Shown here in pieces: positions 1 through 27,572 of a stretch of DNA of 27,572 nucleotides. Where the stretch lies: IMG/VR virus record IMGVR_UViG_3300033149_003702, positions 1-27,572 of that record; one strand, written 5' to 3'. The notes beneath the pieces are model-generated. The model was not told the origin of the DNA and did not search any database. It saw only the letters and a program-made list of their open reading frames with translations. Position 1 is the first letter of the stretch, and the number at the start of each line of letters is the position of its first letter. Source of the stretch: a virus. The position numbers were made by a program, and so were the translations under genes.

Positions 1-21
1 ATAACTGTAGGGTGTTGGAAA
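1..21. repeat. Terminal direct repeat (left copy)
   Basis: These 21 bases, beginning ATAACTGTAGGGTG, are identical to the last 21 bases of the window. Together with the uninterrupted reading frame across the join this indicates a circular molecule cut at an arbitrary point, giving about 27,551 bp. A genuine short terminal repeat on a linear genome is less likely because the repeat lies inside a gene. Confidence 0.93.
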
Positions 22-240
22 CCAATAACAGAAACAAATAGAAGTATAGCAATAATGGTTGCTGGAAGAGATTTAGAAGAAATTATAGATACAGCAAGAC
101 ACGAGATATGCCACGAGATAGATTTTAGATTAATGGATTATAATACAACCGAATGGAATAATAAAGATAAAAAATCAAAGGAAGAATTTGCTAAGAATTG
201 TAATCCAGAAGTATATTTAAATATTACTAAAAGGAGGTAA
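1..240 (+). CDS. C-terminal part of membrane-anchored HExxH protein (continues from 27444)
   Basis: This is the 3' part of a 115-aa gene whose first 43 codons lie at 27444-27572. After removal of the shared 21 bases the frame is continuous. The segment carries HEICH (residues 70-74 of the joined protein), the HExxH zinc-binding and catalytic signature of metallopeptidases, on a helix beginning DLEEIIDTA; an acidic downstream helix (KEEFAKNC) could supply the third ligand. One N-terminal membrane helix anchors it. An internal ATG at 55 is not the true start. It ends at an AAGGAGGT motif (232-239) that serves the next gene. A peptidase role is inferred from the motif alone; substrate and membrane side are unknown. 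Confidence 0.85.
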   Translation: MTVGCWKPITETNRSIAIMVAGRDLEEIIDTARHEICHEIDFRLMDYNTTEWNNKDKKSKEEFAKNCNPEVYLNITKRR

Positions 241-1995: not shown

Positions 1996-2919
1996 TTACC
2001 TTGATTTCTTCTCTCTTTTGGCAATTTCAGAGGGTTCTGGGTAGTTTTTTGGCTTTTTCTCCTCCTTATCCCCATAAGAACCACAAATTTTAGCAATTTG
2101 TTGAAAAGAAATGTCCATATCATAATCAATAAGCAAGTTTTCAAGCTCACGGTATGTTAATTTAGTTTGTTTCCTTAAAATATATAATATTAAGTTCCTT
2201 TGTTCCCTAAATCTTACTTGCGCGGATGTCATCGGGTTCTTTTGGGTTTCTTCTAATGCTTTTCCTTTCTTATTTCTATATTCTTTCTCGGTTTCATCAT
2301 CCCCAAGAACAAATTTTCCATAAAATCTTCCTCTAAACCTAGTTCGAACACCTTTATGCCCATAAGAATAATCTTTTTTTCCTGTTAGATAGAGTCTTTT
2401 TTTTAATTGAGTATTATAAACCCTAAAATACCCACGATTACCAGAGGCTTCGTAAATATGAATCAATGCCCTGGCCCTAAATAGTGCAACATATTTATCA
2501 AGTAAGAAAAAAGTGGGTAATACTATTATAACACATAGATTTTTTTGCCTCATCTGCATCATTAAGCTAACTAAAGTTCTATTAACACTAGATAATGCTG
2601 CTCTTGAACTTAATCCAGTAAATGCTTCATCAAATACTACTACTTGTCCCTTTTTTGCCTTAAAAATGGCTTGTCTAAAACTCTCTCCATCAAAAACAAC
2701 CCTACTTAAATCAAGTGAGGGGTCAATATATTTACCTACCTGAAAAGCAAAGGTTGATTTTCCACTTCCTTCCTTTCCATCAAGAGCAAGAACAAAATCT
2801 TTATCCTTTTTTGCCAACATTGGAATTATTTTTTCATCTAAATTCTTTTTAAGTCTTGGTTCAATATAATATTCAGAAATATACCCTGTTTTTGGATTTT
2901 TTATCTTTGCGATTACCAT
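1996..2919 (-). CDS. P-loop ATPase (DNA-packaging/Zot-like) with C-terminal helix-turn-helix
   Basis: A 307-aa ATPase. Walker A is GKEGSGKST (about residues 48-56) and Walker B is VVVFDE (93-98), followed by a sensor-like strand (LCVIIVLPTF) and an aromatic, Arg-rich segment. The last ~80 residues (from about 229) look like a winged helix (RNLILYILRKQTKLTYRELE). Virus-encoded ATPases of this general class translocate genomes or drive assembly; the lack of helicase motifs and pairing with a small helical protein fit packaging or morphogenesis. The start ATG overlaps the upstream stop as TAATG, so it is translated after the 139-aa gene from the 3359-3373 promoter. Exact subfamily (FtsK/HerA versus Zot) cannot be settled by eye. 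Confidence 0.85.
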   Translation of the reverse strand: MVIAKIKNPKTGYISEYYIEPRLKKNLDEKIIPMLAKKDKDFVLALDGKEGSGKSTFAFQVGKYIDPSLDLSRVVFDGESFRQAIFKAKKGQVVVFDEAFTGLSSRAALSSVNRTLVSLMMQMRQKNLCVIIVLPTFFLLDKYVALFRARALIHIYEASGNRGYFRVYNTQLKKRLYLTGKKDYSYGHKGVRTRFRGRFYGKFVLGDDETEKEYRNKKGKALEETQKNPMTSAQVRFREQRNLILYILRKQTKLTYRELENLLIDYDMDISFQQIAKICGSYGDKEEKKPKNYPEPSEIAKREKKSR

Positions 2920-3493: not shown

Positions 3494-3712
3494 ATGCTAG
3501 GAAATATTATTGGCGGGTTTATTGTTATTTTAGTAGGAACTGCTCTTTTACCAACTGTTGCTCAGCAAGTTGGGACAGCTCAAGCTGACGGAAACGTTAC
3601 AGGTGCTGCTGATACTTTAGTTGGATTAACTACATTATTCTTTGCTCTTGCGGTTGCAACAAGTTCAATAGGAATTGCTGCTCAAGGACTTAGAAATAGT
3701 GGATTAATCTAA
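3494..3712 (+). CDS. Major capsid protein candidate, spindle-virus VP1-like
   Basis: A 72-aa protein with two hydrophobic helices (about 5-22 and 43-63) joined by a polar turn (DGNVTGAADT). The layout GGFIVILVGTALLPTVAQQV, then VTG, then a second helix, resembles as I recall it the SSV1 VP1 coat protein (GLFIFILIGIVLLPVIVSQV, then VTG, then LVPLFYILVL). Such proteins form the lipid-embedded shell of spindle-shaped archaeal viruses. It is first in its operon behind a strong AAGGAGGG (3474-3481) unusually far (12 nt) from the ATG; the same leader occurs before 16832. A pilin-like minor protein is the alternative. Confidence 0.75.
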   Translation: MLGNIIGGFIVILVGTALLPTVAQQVGTAQADGNVTGAADTLVGLTTLFFALAVATSSIGIAAQGLRNSGLI

Positions 3713-8709: not shown

Positions 8710-8724
8710 ATCGATATTTATAAA
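8710..8724 (+). promoter_or_regulatory. Class-1 promoter
   Basis: ATCGATATTTATAAA, an exact match, with 21 nt to the ATG at 8746. It begins the transcription unit of the 1044-aa protein and probably the adhesin module. Confidence 0.87.
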
Positions 8725-8745
8725 CTAATTACACGTAGTTTTCTT

Positions 8746-8904
8746 ATGAAATTGGGAGATTTAGTTAGTGTATCTAGAAACAAAACAAATAAACAAGTTA
8801 ATTTAAATATTAAAAAAAGAAAATTAAAAAGGTTAGATATTTCTGAAGAAGATTTAATGAACATGGATTTATTATCACCAAAAGTAAATTTAAAGGATTT
8901 TTAA
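8746..8904 (+). CDS. 52-aa operon-leading small protein, paralogue of 16127
   Basis: The protein MKLGDLVSVSRNKTNKQVNL and onward aligns end to end with the 48-aa product at 16127 (shared MKL.DLVSV, NK, Q.NL.IKK, then KL..D..EE). Both are the first gene after a class-1 promoter with a 21-nt gap, so both are leaderless. The next gene begins directly after its stop. The hydrophilic, basic sequence fits a small regulatory or virion-linked peptide. Duplicated promoter-plus-gene cassettes are good evidence that it is real despite its size. Confidence 0.75.
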   Translation: MKLGDLVSVSRNKTNKQVNLNIKKRKLKRLDISEEDLMNMDLLSPKVNLKDF

Positions 8905-12371: not shown

Positions 12372-12644
12372 ATGGATAGAAAAATATTAAAAAATAAAAA
12401 AGGACAATCTTTAGGACTTGGAATTATGACAGCTATAGTTTTCTTAATTATCGGACTAATGACAATTAACTTTGTAAAAGATGAAGTCACAAGGGCAAGA
12501 ACAGATTTAAGTTGTTCAGATGTAGATAATATAAGTGATGGAACAAAATTACTCTGCCTTGTAGTTGATTCAACAGTTCCTTATTGGATAGTAATAATAT
12601 TTAGTATAACAATCGGATTTATTACAATGAGGTTAAAAATATGA
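12372..12644 (+). CDS. Prepilin-like two-helix membrane protein
   Basis: A 90-aa protein from ATG 12372; a GTG at 12363 is possible. The start KNKKGQSLGLGIMTAIVFLI has the KKGQ junction of archaeal class III signal peptides, cleaved before Gln by prepilin peptidase, then a hydrophobic helix, a Cys-containing ectodomain (LSCSDVDNISDGTKLLCLVV) and a second helix. It is paralogous in layout to the preceding protein, with which it may form disulphide-linked pairs. Its end overlaps the adhesin gene by 4 nt. Processing by host peptidase is inference. Confidence 0.72.
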   Translation: MDRKILKNKKGQSLGLGIMTAIVFLIIGLMTINFVKDEVTRARTDLSCSDVDNISDGTKLLCLVVDSTVPYWIVIIFSITIGFITMRLKI

Positions 12645-15376
12645 AATACAGAGATAGAAAAATAGACATGGTTACAATAATGTTTGGGGTAATGGCTCTG
12701 TTCTTAATGATAATGTTATCTGTTCCAGTTTCAGCAGCCAATTTTGATAATGTAAAATCCTTTGATAAAGATGTAGGAAATTATGGAAAAGTTACAATAA
12801 AAGATTGGTTTGGATTACTAAAATTAGCAGAATTAGAATTAAAAGAAAATACAGACATATGTCTTATTGAATGTTCAGCAGAAAAAGAAATAATACTGCA
12901 CCAAAAAGGAAGTCTTATAGATGAAATTAAATTTGAAACAATAAATTATGATGGAACAAGAACACAAGAACCAATAGAAGAATATACTTTTTATATTAAA
13001 AAAAATAATAAATGGATAAAATATAATTTAGGAGACGAAGTAAATCCAGGAACATACCAAATTAGATTAGAAGGTAAAAAATCAATGTTCAAATCAGTTG
13101 ACTGGATAATAACCTCTCAAGGCAAGGAAATTCGAGAATGGGCAATTTGGGATACAAACGCACCAGTAGCTTATTTTTCTCTTGATGAAACAAGTGGAAA
13201 GAATATATCAAATAAAATTAATGCAACATTTAATGGAAGTTTAAGCACAGAATTTGAAGATGTAAATTGGATACCAGGAAAGATAGGCAATGGATTATTA
13301 TTTAATGAATCAGGAAGCCATACAAATTTTACTAATATAACTAGTTGGGGAATTCATGAAACAAATCAAACCTCTATTTCATTTTGGATTAATTTTACAG
13401 CACATACTATAAGTAATACAGGGGTATTCTCAATAGGCGGACAAGGAATAGAATTAAGAAATGTAGCAGACCAATTTAGTTTCGGTTGGGCAGATTTAGG
13501 AATCCAAAGTATATCAACTGCAAATAATATTATTGTTCCTAATAGGTGGTATCATATTGTTATTACACAAAATTCAAGTTGGATTAATGAAACAAATAGT
13601 AGACTTTATATTAATGGAACATTACAAGATTGGGGTGGAAATGTCAATGAGTTCTTCTGGGATTTAACAAAAAATGATGGAAAATTCAGCTTAGGATTTA
13701 ATTACTTTAATAATATACCAATAAATGGAAGTATAGATGAATTTGGGGTTTGGAACTCTACATTATCTCAGGCAGAAGTAAATGAATTGTATAATGCGGG
13801 GGCGGGTTTAGGTTGGGGAGAAACACAATCATTATTAATAACTTTAGATTCACCAGCAACAGGAATAAATGTAACAGGAACCCAAAACTTTACAGGATTT
13901 TTTAACACAACAGAGGGGCATACCTTAGTGAATACAACATTAAATGTTTGGTATAGTAATTCAACATTATTTAGCACTACAACAGAATCAATAAACGGGA
14001 CAAATAATCAAACAACAATCCAGGTAGATAATATAAATACTCCTAAGGATAATTATCTTTGGAATTATAAAGCATGTTCTGAAAACTCAACAGGATTCTT
14101 ATGCCGTTCTGCAAGTAGCAATAGAACTTTCCAAACACCCTCATTTATTTTTGGCCAATGTAATTCAACTAACACCATAGCTTATGTTAATTTTACATTT
14201 GAAGATGAAAGCGACCAATCAGTAATATTTAATGGAACAATTCCAAGTTCAACTTTCGTATGGTGGTTTGAAGAAGTAAATAATAATGAAACATTCATTT
14301 TCTCAAATTCTGTTGGAAACCAAAGTTATGCTTTTTGTTTTTCTCCTGGTGTAGTAAATATATCAGTAGATTATAGAATACAATACGAAGATCAAGAAGG
14401 AGATTATCAACAAAGAATATTAAAACCCCAAGTAACAACCTTCTCCAATAGAACTACAAATATAACTTTGCCTTTGTTAGCTACTGTTGATGGGCAATTT
14501 GTAACCTTTCAAGTTGTAAATCTTGCAGAACAAGTAATCTCTGGGGTAAATGTAAATGTAAGCAGAGACATTAGTGGAGTAGATACTTTAATAGCAACAG
14601 GAACAACAAACGACGCGGGGAGTATAACCTTTTTCTTAGACCCGGACATAGAACATAGATTAGGGTTTAGTGCAACAGGATATGATGATTTAATAACCAC
14701 CCTATTTCCAACACAAACAAGTTATACTATAACTTTGGGGACAGGAACAATAGTAATTCAGGAATTTGATACAACAAAAGGAATAAGTTATACCATAAAC
14801 CCCATAAATTCAACTTTATTCAATAATACTGCGTATGATTTTGATTTTATATTGACTTCAAGTTTCTGGGAAGTAAGTGATTTTGGATTTAATTTAGTTA
14901 ATGCAACAGGAACATTAGCAGAAGTAAGTGTAAGTGCAAATGGTGGAACAGCAACAACTAATTTTGATGTGGGGAATAATACTCAAATAATTATGAATTA
15001 TTTTTGGGTTATTGATGGGAATTATACAAATGCTTCAATAAGTTGGTATGTTTTATCTTCAGCAGGAACAGATTGGAGTATAAAAACCTTTTTTGATGAT
15101 TTTAATATTTACCTTACTTCAGGAATATTTGGATTAGATGAATTTGGAAGGGCAATAATTGTCTTTTTAATTATATTCATATTTGTAGGAGTAATGTCCT
15201 TTAAATTTGGAATAACAAGCCCCGTAGGAATAACAAGTGTGATATTTGGATTAGTAGCATTTTTTGATATAGGAATGGGGATAGTCCCAAACCCTGTAAA
15301 TGCGATTCCTAATTTTGCTACAATATTCGTAGCAATCGTGTTAACTGGAGTATTATTTAAGGAGGTATTTAGATGA
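12641..15376 (+). CDS. LamG-domain adhesin with C-terminal membrane anchor
   Basis: A 911-aa surface protein. Residues 11-33 are a signal peptide (LMIMLSVPVSAANF junction). A conserved-looking N-terminal domain (35-165) precedes a concanavalin-like LamG domain at ~175-392, ending with the typical GSIDEFGVWNSTLSQAEVNE segment. One or two Ig-like domains follow (400-500), then threonine/asparagine-rich beta domains, and about three membrane helices from residue ~830 (FLIIFIFVGVMSF onward). Many N-x-S/T sites are present. LamG domains bind carbohydrates, so this is a probable receptor-binding spike. It overlaps both neighbours by 4 nt (ATGA), tying it to the membrane proteins around it. Confidence 0.85.
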   Translation: MKYRDRKIDMVTIMFGVMALFLMIMLSVPVSAANFDNVKSFDKDVGNYGKVTIKDWFGLLKLAELELKENTDICLIECSAEKEIILHQKGSLIDEIKFETINYDGTRTQEPIEEYTFYIKKNNKWIKYNLGDEVNPGTYQIRLEGKKSMFKSVDWIITSQGKEIREWAIWDTNAPVAYFSLDETSGKNISNKINATFNGSLSTEFEDVNWIPGKIGNGLLFNESGSHTNFTNITSWGIHETNQTSISFWINFTAHTISNTGVFSIGGQGIELRNVADQFSFGWADLGIQSISTANNIIVPNRWYHIVITQNSSWINETNSRLYINGTLQDWGGNVNEFFWDLTKNDGKFSLGFNYFNNIPINGSIDEFGVWNSTLSQAEVNELYNAGAGLGWGETQSLLITLDSPATGINVTGTQNFTGFFNTTEGHTLVNTTLNVWYSNSTLFSTTTESINGTNNQTTIQVDNINTPKDNYLWNYKACSENSTGFLCRSASSNRTFQTPSFIFGQCNSTNTIAYVNFTFEDESDQSVIFNGTIPSSTFVWWFEEVNNNETFIFSNSVGNQSYAFCFSPGVVNISVDYRIQYEDQEGDYQQRILKPQVTTFSNRTTNITLPLLATVDGQFVTFQVVNLAEQVISGVNVNVSRDISGVDTLIATGTTNDAGSITFFLDPDIEHRLGFSATGYDDLITTLFPTQTSYTITLGTGTIVIQEFDTTKGISYTINPINSTLFNNTAYDFDFILTSSFWEVSDFGFNLVNATGTLAEVSVSANGGTATTNFDVGNNTQIIMNYFWVIDGNYTNASISWYVLSSAGTDWSIKTFFDDFNIYLTSGIFGLDEFGRAIIVFLIIFIFVGVMSFKFGITSPVGITSVIFGLVAFFDIGMGIVPNPVNAIPNFATIFVAIVLTGVLFKEVFR

Positions 15377-15819: not shown

Positions 15820-16091
15820 TGGCAACATGCACAGGATTTATTGAACCATTGAATTTAGAATGTTGGTTAGTAAATGTTTTTAGTGGAACTCTTGATATTT
15901 TTATATTCATATCTTTAATTGTTATTGCTACATTAGGAGCAAGATTTAAAATGCTTAATTCAACTTTACTTATAATATTTGGATTATATGCAATAATAAT
16001 GGCTCAATTTATGACTGGAATTTATTTCCTTGTTGTATTACTTGGAGGATTAATTAGCGCATGGGCTATAACAAAGATGGTTAAGACATGA
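15819..16091 (+). CDS. Small polytopic membrane protein of the adhesin module
   Basis: A 90-aa protein with a short Cys-containing N-terminus (MATCTGFIEPLNLECWLVNV) and three hydrophobic segments. The start overlaps the previous stop (TAATG). Its stop codon directly adjoins the next class-1 promoter, so it ends the transcription unit. The function is unknown beyond membrane localisation. Confidence 0.72.
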   Translation: MATCTGFIEPLNLECWLVNVFSGTLDIFIFISLIVIATLGARFKMLNSTLLIIFGLYAIIMAQFMTGIYFLVVLLGGLISAWAITKMVKT

Positions 16092-16105
16092 TCGATATTT
16101 AAAAA
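16091..16105 (+). promoter_or_regulatory. Class-1 promoter
   Basis: ATCGATATTTAAAAA, an exact match starting on the last base of the previous stop codon, with 21 nt to ATG 16127. The spacer ends ATACATGTAAATAAT, identical to the minus-strand spacer before ATG 603. Confidence 0.87.
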
Positions 16106-16126
16106 CTAACTATACATGTAAATAAT

Positions 16127-16273
16127 ATGAAATTAAAAGATTTAGTAAGTGTAACGAAAAATAAAAGAAATAATCAAACAAATTTAACTATAAAGAAAAC
16201 TAAACTTAAAGATATAGATATGACCGAAGAACAAATATTAGGTATAGAAATAAATAAACATTTTCTAAAATAA
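16127..16273 (+). CDS. 48-aa operon-leading small protein, paralogue of 8746
   Basis: MKLKDLVSVTKNKRNNQTNL and onward aligns with the 52-aa product at 8746 along its length, including the downstream KLKDIDMTEEQ segment. Like its paralogue it lies 21 nt after a class-1 TATA, predicting a leaderless mRNA, and its stop is followed one base later by the next ATG. It is a hydrophilic basic protein of unknown function, duplicated together with its promoter. Confidence 0.75.
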   Translation: MKLKDLVSVTKNKRNNQTNLTIKKTKLKDIDMTEEQILGIEINKHFLK

Positions 16274-20412: not shown

Positions 20413-20552
20413 AAAGAACAAAAATGGAAAACCAAATAAGAAAAGCAAGAGAAAAGTTAAGAGATTTGCATAAGAAATACCAAAAAGAGTTTTTTGATAT
20501 AAATAAAAAGATAGATACATATTTAGAAACTATTGAAAATGCAAACCAATGA
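20409..20552 (+). CDS. 47-aa coiled-coil protein
   Basis: A highly charged helical protein (MKRTKMENQIRKAREKLRDL) with a heptad-like pattern through its length and ATGA overlaps at both ends. Possibly a dimerising accessory peptide; no family is recognised. Confidence 0.55.
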   Translation: MKRTKMENQIRKAREKLRDLHKKYQKEFFDINKKIDTYLETIENANQ

Positions 20553-20854
20553 AGATGAAATTTTGGAGAGATAAGAAAGGAAACTGGATAGATTATAAAG
20601 AATTTAATAAAAGATTCAAAGAAGGTGTGGCTGGCATTTCACCATTACAAATTACATCCCAACAATTAATGGGAATGAGAATAGTTTTACTTGGTTTACT
20701 TTGTGGTATAACTGTTTCTCTTTTTAATTTTAAAAATCTATGGTGGTTATTCATAATCTTATTTGGAAGTCTTTATGTTAACATAACTCAATATATTGGA
20801 ACTTGGCAAAAGAAAAAAGCCTTAGAAGATATAGAAAAACAATTTAAGGAGTAA
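20549..20854 (+). CDS. Two-span membrane protein
   Basis: A 101-aa protein with a charged N-terminus, the segment SPLQITSQQLMGMRIVLLGL, and two helices (about 42-61 and 66-83, KNLWWLFIILFGSLYVNI), then a basic helix. I recognise this layout from uncharacterised archaeal virus and provirus ORFs. It is coupled upstream by ATGA and one base from the next gene. Probable membrane or virion component. Confidence 0.7.
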   Translation: MKMKFWRDKKGNWIDYKEFNKRFKEGVAGISPLQITSQQLMGMRIVLLGLLCGITVSLFNFKNLWWLFIILFGSLYVNITQYIGTWQKKKALEDIEKQFKE

Positions 20855-20855
20855 A

Positions 20856-21056
20856 ATGAATAAAAAAGGGCAACTAGATTTAGGATTATTAGAAGAAGAA
20901 GGATTTTGGATACTTGGAGGAATGGCTGTTGCTGCAACAATAGTAGGATACATCATGAGCAAGAGAATGGAGTGGGTAGCATTACCTTTATGGCAGTTGA
21001 TTGTGATAATAGTTGTAGAAATAATTGCTGCAGCTATCTTTACTTTAAAAGGTTAG
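20856..21056 (+). CDS. Prepilin-like two-span membrane protein
   Basis: A 66-aa protein starting MNKKGQLDLGLLEEEGFWIL, with the KKGQ prepilin-type junction and a Glu near +5 as in archaeal class III signals, followed by two helices (~19-33 and 43-63, LWQLIVIIVVEIIAAAIFTL). It could be a pilin-like virion protein or a protein that mimics host pilins. The unusual EEE after the junction makes cleavage uncertain. Confidence 0.68.
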   Translation: MNKKGQLDLGLLEEEGFWILGGMAVAATIVGYIMSKRMEWVALPLWQLIVIIVVEIIAAAIFTLKG

Positions 21057-21068
21057 AAGGAGGTAAAA

Positions 21069-21350
21069 ATGAAAAAATTAAAAGAAACATTAATAGATGG
21101 AGAGTTAGTTTACTTAAAAAAAGATATTTTAGGTTGGCATGTAACTCATCCAGTAAAGATAGATGGAAAAATAAACTGGAAAAATCTTATAGCAGGGGGA
21201 AGTTGGCTAAAATTTATTTTTATGATAATCTTTGTAATCTTGGCTTTAGGAGCAATTTTGGAAGTAAGCAATATAATAAAAATCGCAAACGAATGTATGC
21301 TATCAAATCAATTAATTCCAATAAATCCATTCGCAAATATATCTATATAA
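21069..21350 (+). CDS. Single-span membrane protein with conserved GW.V.HP segment
   Basis: A 93-aa protein. The N-terminal cytoplasmic part contains KKDILGWHVTHPVKIDGKIN, then a helix (residues ~47-68, WLKFIFMIIFVILALGAIL) and a short ectodomain with one Cys. An AAGGAGGT precedes the ATG. The GW.V.HP.K.DG.INW.N pattern is one I associate with recurrent but unnamed archaeal virus proteins. The stop overlaps the next start (TAATG). Confidence 0.7.
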   Translation: MKKLKETLIDGELVYLKKDILGWHVTHPVKIDGKINWKNLIAGGSWLKFIFMIIFVILALGAILEVSNIIKIANECMLSNQLIPINPFANISI

Positions 21351-21634
21351 TGGAAGAAAAAAAAGAATTAAATATAGGATTACTTTACATATCCTTACAT
21401 AATTTATTAAGAAGAAGAGTAGGAATAAATAAATATATTTCTCGCAAAGACTTTTATACTATTTTAGGAAAGCATTTTCTCATACCAAAAAATATAAGAA
21501 TCGTTGTCATAAAAGAGATGGAGCAAAGAGGTTTAGTAAAACAAAAAAATAAAGAAAATATAAAAATATTAGATTGCGATTTAGATATAAACAAAGATAT
21601 AAATTTCTGGTATCAAAAGATGGGAATTTTCTAA
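21350..21634 (+). CDS. Winged-helix-like small protein
   Basis: A 94-aa soluble protein from ATG 21350 (TAATG overlap with the previous stop). The segment YISRKDFYTILGKHFLIPKN followed by IRIVVIKEMEQRGLVKQKNK reads as helix-turn-helix plus wing. The open frame continues upstream to 20906 but that part is the out-of-frame shadow of two other genes. Probably a transcriptional regulator acting on the nearby promoters; this is inferred from fold. Confidence 0.7.
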   Translation: MEEKKELNIGLLYISLHNLLRRRVGINKYISRKDFYTILGKHFLIPKNIRIVVIKEMEQRGLVKQKNKENIKILDCDLDINKDINFWYQKMGIF

Positions 21635-23008: not shown

Positions 23009-23302
23009 ATGATAAAAGAAAAGAAATTTGATAATCAGCAGGAAAAAAAGGAGAAGGACTTACCTTTGGGAACTTCTCTGGGGACACGAAGCAGTAGCAG
23101 GGGAAGAACATTACAAAGGAATATGCCTGTTAAAGTGGATAACCACCCTGCTGATACTTTTAAATTTGATGAAGATGATTACTTTGCCTTATGGGAAAGA
23201 TTCAAAATAAAAGCCACTAATAGAGAACATCAAAATCTAAAGGAACTTGGAATGTTATTTGAGATTTGGGTTAAAATTAAATTTGGGAGATTGTTAGAAT
23301 GA
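23009..23302 (+). CDS. 97-aa protein of unknown function
   Basis: The N-terminus is basic and polar (KKEKDLPLGTSLGTRSSSRG), then a helical domain (DEDDYFALWERFKIKATNRE). ATG 23009 is chosen over TTG 23000. Its stop overlaps the next start as ATGA. The Gly/Ser/Arg-rich first third may be disordered. No family is recognised. Confidence 0.6.
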   Translation: MIKEKKFDNQQEKKEKDLPLGTSLGTRSSSRGRTLQRNMPVKVDNHPADTFKFDEDDYFALWERFKIKATNREHQNLKELGMLFEIWVKIKFGRLLE

Positions 23303-23601
23303 GACAAAAGAAATTAACTGAATGTAAAGAATGTGGTTTTCCTTTGGAATGGGGAAGGAAACCAGTTTTCTTAAAAGATGATATATTTAGTTTAATGAAT
23401 ATAGAAGAAAACACTTGTAAGACTTGTGGACATCAAAAAGATGGTTATACAATATCAAAGATTCAAGATTTATTAAGGAGATGTAGGGAGGCTGGAATAA
23501 AACAACATAAGAAAAATGTTTTGGAGGTTATTGATGAGTTAACTATTGAAGAAGGATATTATGTGCCTATTAAAGAACTTAAAAAGAGGATTGAGGGATG
23601 A
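23299..23601 (+). CDS. Zinc-ribbon protein with repeated C-terminal module
   Basis: A 100-aa protein: four-Cys ribbon (ECKECGFPLEWGRK with ENTCKTCGHQKDG) at residues ~9-46, then a helical module with KKNVLEVIDELTIEE and ending IKELKKRIEG. The ending and the DNA encoding it recur in the genes at 24434 and 24646, showing local duplication. Its stop overlaps the uL22 gene start, coupling the two. Confidence 0.7.
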   Translation: MRQKKLTECKECGFPLEWGRKPVFLKDDIFSLMNIEENTCKTCGHQKDGYTISKIQDLLRRCREAGIKQHKKNVLEVIDELTIEEGYYVPIKELKKRIEG

Positions 23602-23603
23602 TG
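23573..23603 (+). repeat. 31-bp repeat shared with 24621 and 24821
   Basis: AAGAACTTAAAAAGAGG and onward to GGGATGATG, covering one gene's last codons (ELKKRIEG) and the next gene's start. It is identical over 31 bases to 24621-24651 and 24821-24851. Confidence 0.85.
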
Positions 23604-24047
23604 TTAAGAAAAGCAAAGGAGAGCATGGCAGAAAAAGATAAAATGAAAACTGAAGCAAAAGTTGAAGGAAAGAGTTTGCATTTTTCATTAAAGCATGGTG
23701 TTGCTATTTGTGATTTTATTAGAGGTAAAAAGATTGAAAAAGCAATTGCTGATTTAGAAGAAGTTTTGAAATTTAAGAAACCGATTCCAATGAAAGGAGA
23801 AATACCTCATAGAAAAGGAATTATGTCTGGAAGATTTCCTGTTAAGGCAGTTGGAGAAGTTATTAAATTACTTAGAAGTTTAGGAGCAAATGCGATTGTT
23901 AATGAATTAGAATTAGAAAAATATGTTATATTTTGTAAAACAAATGTTGCATCAAGGCCTTATAAAAGATTTGGGCAAGGGCGAATGAAGAGATGTCATA
24001 TGACAATTAAATTAATAGAGCCAAAGAAAAAGGCTAAGAAGAAATAA
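23598..24047 (+). CDS. rpl22: Ribosomal protein uL22 (L22P), DPANN-like
   Basis: 149 aa, about the usual archaeal length. It carries the L22 core: LHFSLKHGVAICDFIRGKKI (helix 1), EKAIADLEEVL, the archaeal insert PMKGEIPHRKGIMSGRFPVK, helix VGEVIKLLRSLGANA, and the hairpin ASRPYKRFGQGRMKRCHMTI that in ribosomes lines the exit tunnel, then a basic tail. The PMKGEIPHRKG and NVASRPY.RFG segments are typical of DPANN L22 as I recall it. It starts at ATG 23598 coupled to the zinc-ribbon gene; ATG 23625 with AAAGGAG is an alternative. No other ribosomal gene is present. It may replace host uL22 in ribosomes or be a captured remnant. Confidence 0.9.
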   Translation: MMLRKAKESMAEKDKMKTEAKVEGKSLHFSLKHGVAICDFIRGKKIEKAIADLEEVLKFKKPIPMKGEIPHRKGIMSGRFPVKAVGEVIKLLRSLGANAIVNELELEKYVIFCKTNVASRPYKRFGQGRMKRCHMTIKLIEPKKKAKKK

Positions 24048-24064: not shown

Positions 24065-24196
24065 ATGCCAAATAAAGATAAATCAGGTCCAAGAAGTGGA
24101 AGCCAAGGTCCAAGAGATGGAAGAGGACAAGGTAAAGGGAGAGCTGGTGGAAAAGGAACTGGAAAGAAAACTGGTGGAAGAAAAGGGAGTTGTTAA
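24065..24196 (+). CDS. Glycine-rich 43-aa protein
   Basis: MPNKDKSGPRSGSQGPRDGR and onward ending GTGKKTGGRKGSC: low-complexity Gly/Lys/Arg with a single terminal Cys. A TGGAGGT lies about 8 nt before the ATG. It resembles short G-P-R-D-G-R-G-rich hypothetical proteins I associate with archaeal MAGs. The basic disordered sequence would suit RNA or ribosome binding beside uL22, but this is inference. Its stop lies within a terminator hairpin. Confidence 0.7.
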   Translation: MPNKDKSGPRSGSQGPRDGRGQGKGRAGGKGTGKKTGGRKGSC

Positions 24197-24215
24197 ACTC
24201 CTTTTTATCTTTTTT
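24186..24215 (+). terminator. Hairpin with T-tract overlapping a stop codon
   Basis: GGAGTT (24186-24191) pairs with AACTCC (24196-24201) around GTTA, followed by TTTTTATC and six or more T. This is the clearest intrinsic-type terminator in the window. It includes the TAA of the glycine-rich gene and closes the uL22 unit. Confidence 0.7.
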
Positions 24216-24433: not shown

Positions 24434-24649
24434 ATGAAAACAATTAAAGAATTAGAAGCTGAAATGCCAAACCCTGTAACATTCACAAAGATACAAGCAC
24501 TAAAAGATGTTTTGGAGGTTGTTGATGAAAGGATTAAGTATTTGTGTGAAATGATAGATTGTGATGAAGGCAAATTTAATTTAGATTGGAATGCAATACA
24601 AGAAAGAATTGATGAATTAGAAGAACTTAAAAAGAGGATTGAGGGATGA
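24434..24649 (+). CDS. Duplicated small protein, copy A
   Basis: 71 aa: MKTIKELEAEMPNPVTFTKI, then LKDVLEVVDERIKYLCEMID and the ending ELEELKKRIEG. The KTIKEL start, VLEVVDE core and ELKKRIEG end are shared with the next gene, and core and end with the zinc-ribbon protein at 23299. The family is local and helical; the function is unknown. Its stop overlaps the next ATG. Confidence 0.65.
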   Translation: MKTIKELEAEMPNPVTFTKIQALKDVLEVVDERIKYLCEMIDCDEGKFNLDWNAIQERIDELEELKKRIEG

Positions 24650-24668
24650 TGACATTTAAAACAATTAA
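24619..24668 (+). repeat. 50-bp direct repeat, copy 1
   Basis: Fifty bases beginning AGAAGAACTTAAAAAGAGG are identical to 24819-24868, exactly 200 bp away. The repeat spans the end of one gene and the start (MMTFKTIK) of the next, as expected from tandem duplication. Confidence 0.9.
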
Positions 24669-24849
24669 GGAATTAAATTTAAGTATTGAAGAGAGAAGAA
24701 CAAGAAGACCTTTAACTAAAGAAGAATGTGGATTAAAGGGTTACAGACAAGCCCTAAAACATCTTTTGGAGTTGGTTGATGAGAATACTAATTTTATTGG
24801 TGGTTGGAAAATAACCCCAGAAGAACTTAAAAAGAGGATTGAGGGATGA
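24646..24849 (+). CDS. Duplicated small protein, copy B
   Basis: 67 aa: MMTFKTIKELNLSIEERRTR, then ALKHLLELVDENTNFIGGW and the ending PEELKKRIEG. Paralogue of the preceding gene with a different middle. After its end a third copy starts again (24846, MMTFKTIKDEK) but stops after 14 codons at 24890, showing an unfinished or decayed duplication. Confidence 0.65.
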   Translation: MMTFKTIKELNLSIEERRTRRPLTKEECGLKGYRQALKHLLELVDENTNFIGGWKITPEELKKRIEG

Positions 24850-24868
24850 TGACATTTAAAACAATTAA
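24819..24868 (+). repeat. 50-bp direct repeat, copy 2
   Basis: Identical to 24619-24668. Downstream of this copy the duplicated reading frame runs only 14 codons. Confidence 0.9.
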
Positions 24869-26156: not shown

Positions 26157-26663
26157 ATGAAAAAGAAAATAGCAATATATTGTAGAGTAAGCACAGAAGA
26201 CCAAGATGTAGATAAACAAGAACATATTTGTAAAAGATATTGTGAAGCACACGAAGAATTTGAAATATATAAAATATACAAAGACGTTATTTCAGGAACA
26301 AAAGAATCAAGACCAGAGTTTAATAAACTCCTGGAGGATATGAGAAATCATTTGTTTGATGCAATAATGGTTACAAAGTTAGATAGGATTGGAAGAAGTT
26401 TAAAACATCTCTTAAGTTTATTTGATGAATTTAGTAATAAAGGAATACATTTTATAGCAACAACCCAAAACATCGATACAAGTTCAGCAGCAGGAAAACT
26501 ACAATTACAAATCTTAGGAGCATTTGCAGAATTTGAAAGAAATATGATTAGTGAAAGAACTAAAGAAGGCCTTAGAAGAGCAGTAGGGGTTGGTAAGCGT
26601 GGAAAAGATAAAATTCCAAGAAAAAGAAGGGGGGTGCTTAAAAATAAGGTTTCCTACAAGTAA
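26157..26663 (+). CDS. Short serine recombinase (resolvase/invertase family)
   Basis: A 168-aa enzyme with the full catalytic domain: YCRVSTEDQ with R10 and nucleophile S12, R52 in SGTKESRPEF, and KLDRIGRS giving D76, R77 and R80, followed by the long helix (LQILGAFAEFERNMISERTK). The C-terminus ends in a short basic tail (GKRGKDKIPRKRRG) rather than the usual helix-turn-helix. It could resolve multimers of the circular genome, invert DNA or drive integration; no crossover site is obvious. It is preceded by zinc-binding genes in a tight cluster. Confidence 0.9.
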   Translation: MKKKIAIYCRVSTEDQDVDKQEHICKRYCEAHEEFEIYKIYKDVISGTKESRPEFNKLLEDMRNHLFDAIMVTKLDRIGRSLKHLLSLFDEFSNKGIHFIATTQNIDTSSAAGKLQLQILGAFAEFERNMISERTKEGLRRAVGVGKRGKDKIPRKRRGVLKNKVSYK

Positions 26664-27443: not shown

Positions 27444-27572
27444 ATGAATAAAATATTAAGTGTATTCTTGGGAATAATTTGGATAGTTGGAATTTCAGCA
27501 ACAATGTTTTTTTTAGGGGTTTTATATGAATCTAAATATGGAGAAGATTTAATAACTGTAGGGTGTTGGAAA
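27444..27572 (+). CDS. N-terminal part of membrane-anchored HExxH protein (continues at 22)
   Basis: The first 43 codons of the 115-aa gene. MNKILSVFLGIIWIVGISAT and onward gives a membrane helix at residues 4-27, then YESKYGEDLITVGCWK, the last seven codons being the shared 21-bp repeat. An AGGAG lies about 9 nt before the ATG. The rest of the protein, with the HEICH motif, continues at base 22 of the window. Confidence 0.85.
   Translation, partial: MNKILSVFLGIIWIVGISATMFFLGVLYESKYGEDLITVGCWK
27552..27572. repeat. Terminal direct repeat (right copy)
   Basis: Identical to bases 1-21. It marks the assembly overlap of a circular molecule and lies in frame within the HExxH gene. Confidence 0.93.

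Follow-up and report, generated by a model that had tools for sequence, protein, structure and literature searches.

The window, that is, the whole stretch of 27,572 bases analysed here, contains an open reading frame with an intact reading frame that encodes a ribosomal protein of the uL22 family (Table 1). The gene stands alone in a variable region, without ribosomal-operon neighbours, between a block of conserved virus genes on one side and a conserved serine resolvase domain on the other; the genes of the intervening stretch have no homologues in related viruses. The stop codon of the gene immediately upstream overlaps the first ATG of uL22 by 4 bases, and a small ORF rich in Gly, Lys and Arg lies directly downstream. 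The uL22 gene is part of a virus genome, and not cellular contamination.

Three exact copies of a 29-base repeat are found in the same region, each of which spans the end of a gene (encoding ELKKRIEG) and an ATGATG, with copy 1 taking in the first ATG of uL22 itself. We suggest that these repeats could have helped the uL22-bearing segment in or out of the genome. The recurrence of the ELKKRIEG tail at all three copies looks as if gene ends had been duplicated, or served as ‘cassette’ borders.

Table 1. Positions of the uL22 gene and of other features in the 27,572-base window
Feature	Position	Strand	Remarks
DnaA-like/AAA ATPase	1996..2919	-	Conserved within this group of viruses
Major capsid protein, VP1 type of spindle-shaped viruses	3494..3712	+	Matches 7xdi, spindle-virus records, phrog_11172
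Large putative surface protein	12641..15376	+	Laminin_G_3 domain; conserved in relatives
Conserved virus gene block, left of uL22 region	20549..21634	+	Homologues in G003, G004, G005
Upstream gene	23299..23601	+	100 residues; Cys pairs (zinc-ribbon-like, weak); ELKKRIEG tail
Exact 29-base repeat, copy 1	23575..23603	+	End of upstream gene and uL22 start (ATGATG)
uL22 gene	23598..24047	+	149 residues from first ATG; profile, sequence and fold matches
Possible alternative uL22 start	ATG 23625	+	MAEKDK; AAGGAG at 23616-23621; 140 residues
uL22 residues 112-134, tunnel hairpin	23931..23999	+	Predicted strands at residues 110-117 and 132-140
Gly/Lys/Arg-rich ORF directly downstream of uL22	24066..24197	+	43 residues; GGAGGT before it; no Pfam match
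Exact 29-base repeat, copy 2	24623..24651	+	About 1.05 kb, with uL22, lies between copies 1 and 2
Exact 29-base repeat, copy 3	24823..24851	+	Exact copy
Serine resolvase catalytic domain, right of uL22 region	26157..26663	+	168 residues; PF00239, 4.4e-46; 70% identity in G005
Junction ORF	27444..27572, continuing at 1-240	+	115 residues; spans circle junction

A preliminary description of this DNA had read the ORF as an intact, full-length uL22 of archaeal type. Its identity is borne out by profile, sequence and structure comparisons alike: the protein matches the Pfam family PF00237 (Ribosomal_L22) above the cut-off (E 1.7e-8, 35 bits against 28), solved archaeal uL22 chains in phmmer (E 1.6e-10), and the archaeal NCBIfam models NF003260 (E 1.1e-21) and TIGR01038 (E 4.5e-18), albeit with 77 and 66 bits, respectively, where the equivalog cut-offs stand at 137 and 79.85. 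Both of these cut-offs are also missed by all five bona fide chromosomal uL22s tested from the nearest host clade; the shortfall is therefore a trait of the clade rather than of the viral copy, and is compatible with membership. An AlphaFold model (mean pLDDT 65, from an input alignment of two sequences) places the helices in their expected order and predicts the two strands of the β-hairpin, with low confidence for the loop between them; Foldseek matches this model to large-subunit uL22 chains in the PDB (E about 4e-6 over about 140 columns), and VIA-align returns a Z-score of about 12 against uL22 chains. The predicted fold is thus that of uL22, hairpin included. The gene is also intact, as proposed, whilst ‘full-length’ holds for the core, the hairpin and the basic tail, but not for the N-terminal extension that most hosts of the clade possess. 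Translation may in fact begin at the second in-frame ATG, which aligns with the start of the short host uL22 of L010 (MAEEKTKIEKKKTAIVNGKDL).

The virus and its relatives

The genome is circular and probably complete, since the ends of the record share a 21-base direct terminal repeat (27552-27572) and an ORF reads through the junction when they are joined. The product of this junction ORF is metalloprotease-like, with a hydrophobic N-terminal segment and an HEICHE motif, and has no Pfam match. The capsid protein is related to VP1 of SSV19 (PDB 7xdi, E 8e-5), has matches in 58 records from Sulfolobus and related spindle viruses, and matches phrog_11172, a family of virion structural proteins; the ATPase matches phrog_5484 (3.4e-7) and the DnaA-like protein of Haloferax LSV-48N (3e-9), and is 59-67% identical to its counterparts in four IMG/VR relatives. 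Most of the genome, on both sides of uL22, has its gene order in common with IMG/VR relatives. A VP1-type capsid, a DnaA-like/AAA ATPase and a circular genome within the size range are as expected of a spindle-shaped (Fuselloviridae-like) virus, and we take the record to be a spindle-type archaeal virus. The terminal repeat, the junction ORF and the virus genes together bear out the small, circular, virus-like replicon first described. Whilst the Sulfolobus spindle-shaped viruses and LSV-48N share the capsid protein and the ATPase, they differ in host group, and no uL22 was present in the phage records searched.

Some further features of the group may be recorded here. The recombinase varies in type, being a serine resolvase of catalytic domain only in this genome and a tyrosine integrase in the relative L004. 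A 141-base direct repeat (73% identity) occurs at 8710-8850 and 16091-16231, 7.4 kb apart, and the small ORFs overlapping its two copies resemble one and the same protein of a relative. Many membrane proteins are encoded by the virus.

It had been asked of the gene whether related contigs keep it; seven relative virus records of 24-42 kb, some of which may be incomplete, do not, including two with a capsid protein 96% identical to that of the window. As a consequence of this absence, uL22 cannot be called a stable trait of the virus group, and lacks the retention across related viruses that is seen for some known viral ribosomal proteins, though not required of them. Scans of IMG/VR with the viral uL22 alone, or with an 11-sequence alignment, returned no other viral uL22; these used short conserved peptides, and could overlook copies that are distant or variant. 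Neither was a viral or plasmid uL22 found among INPHARED phages, PLSDB plasmids or BFVD structures. A weak match in a DPANN-binned virus contig (L063:4728-4913) proved fortuitous, the ORF concerned being antitoxin-like, and genomes that seemed to have another, weakly matching uL22 contain a single gene, either whole or broken up by frame errors. With no earlier report in the limited collection of literature searched, uL22 on a spindle-shaped virus appears to be new.

Origin of the gene and its likely host

A genome scan gave one close relative of the viral uL22, L002, which is the nearest and sits within a run of ribosomal-protein genes; wider searches found a uL22 match in 53 of 55 genomes related to that of L002, and in 196 of 200 genomes of the order to which G008 belongs. 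The nearest relatives are chromosomal uL22s of a single group of small-genome archaea, with 53-67% identity over the whole match, rising to as much as 70% over a 124-column core, and no closer host copy was present among the 200 genomes of the order searched. From the lack of a close sampled donor it follows that the gene is either old in viruses or derived from an unsampled host. In a tree of the core, the viral protein is nested among about 20 genomes of the clade, with low bootstrap support for its exact place; AU tests reject neither a placement with L010 and L026 (p 0.20) nor one with the L002 group (p 0.28). The residues KRCH and FGQGR are common to the virus, L010 and L026 and, along with a short N-terminus, give a hint, but only that, of descent from the L010/L026 line.

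On these comparisons, the gene is one taken from a host-like archaeal genome, and the donor or host lies, as initially suggested, amongst small-genome archaea of DPANN type, a label that rests on genome sizes of 0.3-1.7 Mb, on ribosomal genes of archaeal type and on the preliminary description's own suggestion, and not on a named match. That description had gone further in holding that the fit to DPANN uL22 names the likely host; the fit narrows the host to some 20 related genomes, but not to a species. Among 180 genomes from the archaeal order to which the nearest uL22s belong, four contain the ATPase of the virus group, and in one of the four a capsid gene lies on the same contigs, although these could stem from viruses binned along with the archaeon instead of from proviruses; this supports the host assignment without proving it. 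As a separate observation, the archaeal genome bin G075 contains two different spindle-virus-like contigs (L060 and L061), each with capsid and ATPase genes, and the DnaA-like ATPase of the latter (L061:14353-16521, G075:C4) carries an in-frame insert at Walker A with Hint and LAGLIDADG domains, that is, an intein.

The viral protein bears the marks of constraint. It keeps 23 of the 24 residues that are invariant in 18 hosts of the clade, Y80F being the only change, and its differences from L002 at the three codon positions (0.23/0.16/0.41) are least at second positions, following the pattern of host-host pairs. Its GC and GC3 resemble those of the virus and of most host uL22s. The end branch of the viral protein measures 0.28 against a median of 0.27, although part of this length may be unsampled-host history. 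Overall, the viral uL22 looks like a working ribosomal protein, and one suited to incorporation into 50S subunits of the host.

Precedents and possible roles

Virus-borne ribosomal proteins are already known, with bS21, bL12, bL9, bL31, bL33 and others encoded by bacteriophages (Mizuno et al. 2019, PMC6375957). Like these, the uL22 described here is a single host-derived gene in a variable genomic context, with a phylogeny that points to the host; however, most of the phage proteins are small or peripheral, and their carriers are tailed phages of bacteria, whereas uL22 is an early-assembly, tunnel-wall protein and is found here in a 27.6 kb archaeal virus of spindle type. Neither ‘L22’ nor ‘tunnel’ occurs in the main text of that paper, and L22 goes unmentioned for a 2026 jumbo cyanophage that has the largest set of ribosomal proteins (PMC13157829). 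Closer in kind is L21e, also a large-subunit protein, which is encoded by haloarchaeal tailed viruses (Hafunaviridae) and was called the first example in archaeal viruses (Liu et al. 2021, PMC8651126); this is nevertheless a different protein, in tailed viruses of haloarchaeal hosts, and was found in four viruses as against the one genome here. What is new and notable in the present case is the protein, the type of virus and the host group: with virus-encoded ribosomal proteins so far mostly small or peripheral, and from tailed viruses, a viral copy of this universal, tunnel-lining protein would carry the phenomenon into the structural core of the ribosome, to archaeal viruses without tails, and to hosts for which few viruses have been described. 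That the gene is intact suggests a virus that adds a part of its own to the protein-making machine of its host, and provides a testable case of a virus supplying a load-bearing part of the host ribosome.

Synthesising the above, we consider it rather probable that uL22 is a functional accessory gene, captured from a host-like archaeon and retained by a spindle-shaped virus of DPANN-type archaea. In this model, the gene of a host-like archaeon would have been acquired by the virus and the protein made during infection, such that it could be built into newly assembled host 50S subunits, either replacing the host copy or alongside it; for some phage-encoded ribosomal proteins, entry into host ribosomes has been reported in work cited by Liu et al. 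(PMC8651126). The benefit might then lie in the supply of, or a shift in, an early-assembly protein, which would maintain the making of ribosomes, or one sub-population of them, in the service of the virus. Should the real host have a uL22 with a long charged N-terminal extension, incorporation of the viral version would also generate 50S subunits without one.

An alternative, which we regard as unlikely, is that uL22 is a mere ‘passenger’: a host gene captured recently and not yet lost, with no role for the virus. Its occurrence in this genome only, among the relatives searched, is what would be expected of such a gene, as is its position in a variable region beside exact repeats that could mediate gain and loss. 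Against it, however, stand sampled donors that are at most 70% identical over the core, an intact frame and the retention of host-invariant residues, and a useless 450 bases would be expected to be lost from a small genome under packaging limits.

A functional accessory gene might also do more than maintain supply, and here the N-terminus is of interest, its length being the clearest difference of the viral protein from the hosts of its clade. Whilst similar in sequence, hairpin length and basic tail to the chromosomal uL22s of small-genome DPANN-type archaea (L002, L010 and others), the viral gene is short and stands alone, in contrast to L002 among its ribosomal genes and to hosts that mostly have a long charged extension: 34-106 residues, rich in Lys and Glu, precede the core in 16 of 18 clade hosts, as compared to 23 in the virus, or 14 from the second start. 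The other two hosts, L010 and L026, are equally short before the core. On the solvent side of the 50S subunit, the globular domain of uL22 is close to the tunnel exit, a docking site for targeting factors. It is conceivable, though in our view quite improbable, that ‘specialised’ ribosomes are produced, in which an extension-less tunnel-wall protein in new 50S subunits would alter docking at the exit in favour of viral membrane proteins; if true, it would be the first known case of a virus exchanging a ribosomal tunnel protein. The more general proposal, that ribosomes lacking the charged extension of the host would present a different exit surface to targeting factors, draws on the same contrast in length, but we judge it very unlikely to be the function of the gene, as L010 and L026, which share KRCH and FGQGR with the virus, are also extension-less, such that the true donor may itself be short, and both of the placements tried survive the AU tests.

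A change within the tunnel itself had been put forward in the preliminary description; in the form weighed here, the viral protein would alter the constriction, to the advantage of viral membrane proteins or as a means of evading a host defence that targets the tunnel. In its favour, uL22 lines the exit tunnel in ribosomes, and the virus does encode numerous membrane proteins. Nevertheless, the proposed check for a cluster of substitutions at the hairpin speaks against it: none of residues 112-134 falls outside the repertoire of 40 host uL22s, and the core residues absent from all 40 hosts (positions 23, 29, 34, 88 and 135) belong to the N-terminal part, to the globular domain or, for 135, to the point directly beyond the loop of the hairpin. 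The viral hairpin is about eight residues shorter than that of Pyrococcus, as estimated from structural alignments, but this is common to the whole host clade. With no new hairpin residues and a clade-wide hairpin length, nothing indicates that the virus remodels the tunnel wall, and we hold this explanation to be very unlikely indeed.

Ribosomal proteins often moonlight, and a small basic protein such as this might serve the virus as an RNA- or DNA-binding factor, for example in regulation or in packaging of the virion. We find an extra-ribosomal role of this kind hard to credit, as the whole ribosomal fold is conserved, including a hairpin that moonlighting would not need, and no adjoining gene indicates such a function. 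Finally, whilst the contig is metagenomic, and a chimera of a host ribosomal operon and a virus had been raised as a finding that would overturn the initial reading, an assembly artefact can practically be dismissed, given a circular genome with an ORF across its junction, virus genes with homologues on both sides of uL22, the overlap of uL22 with its upstream gene, the missing operon neighbours, and a first uL22 ATG that falls within a repeat of the surrounding genes.
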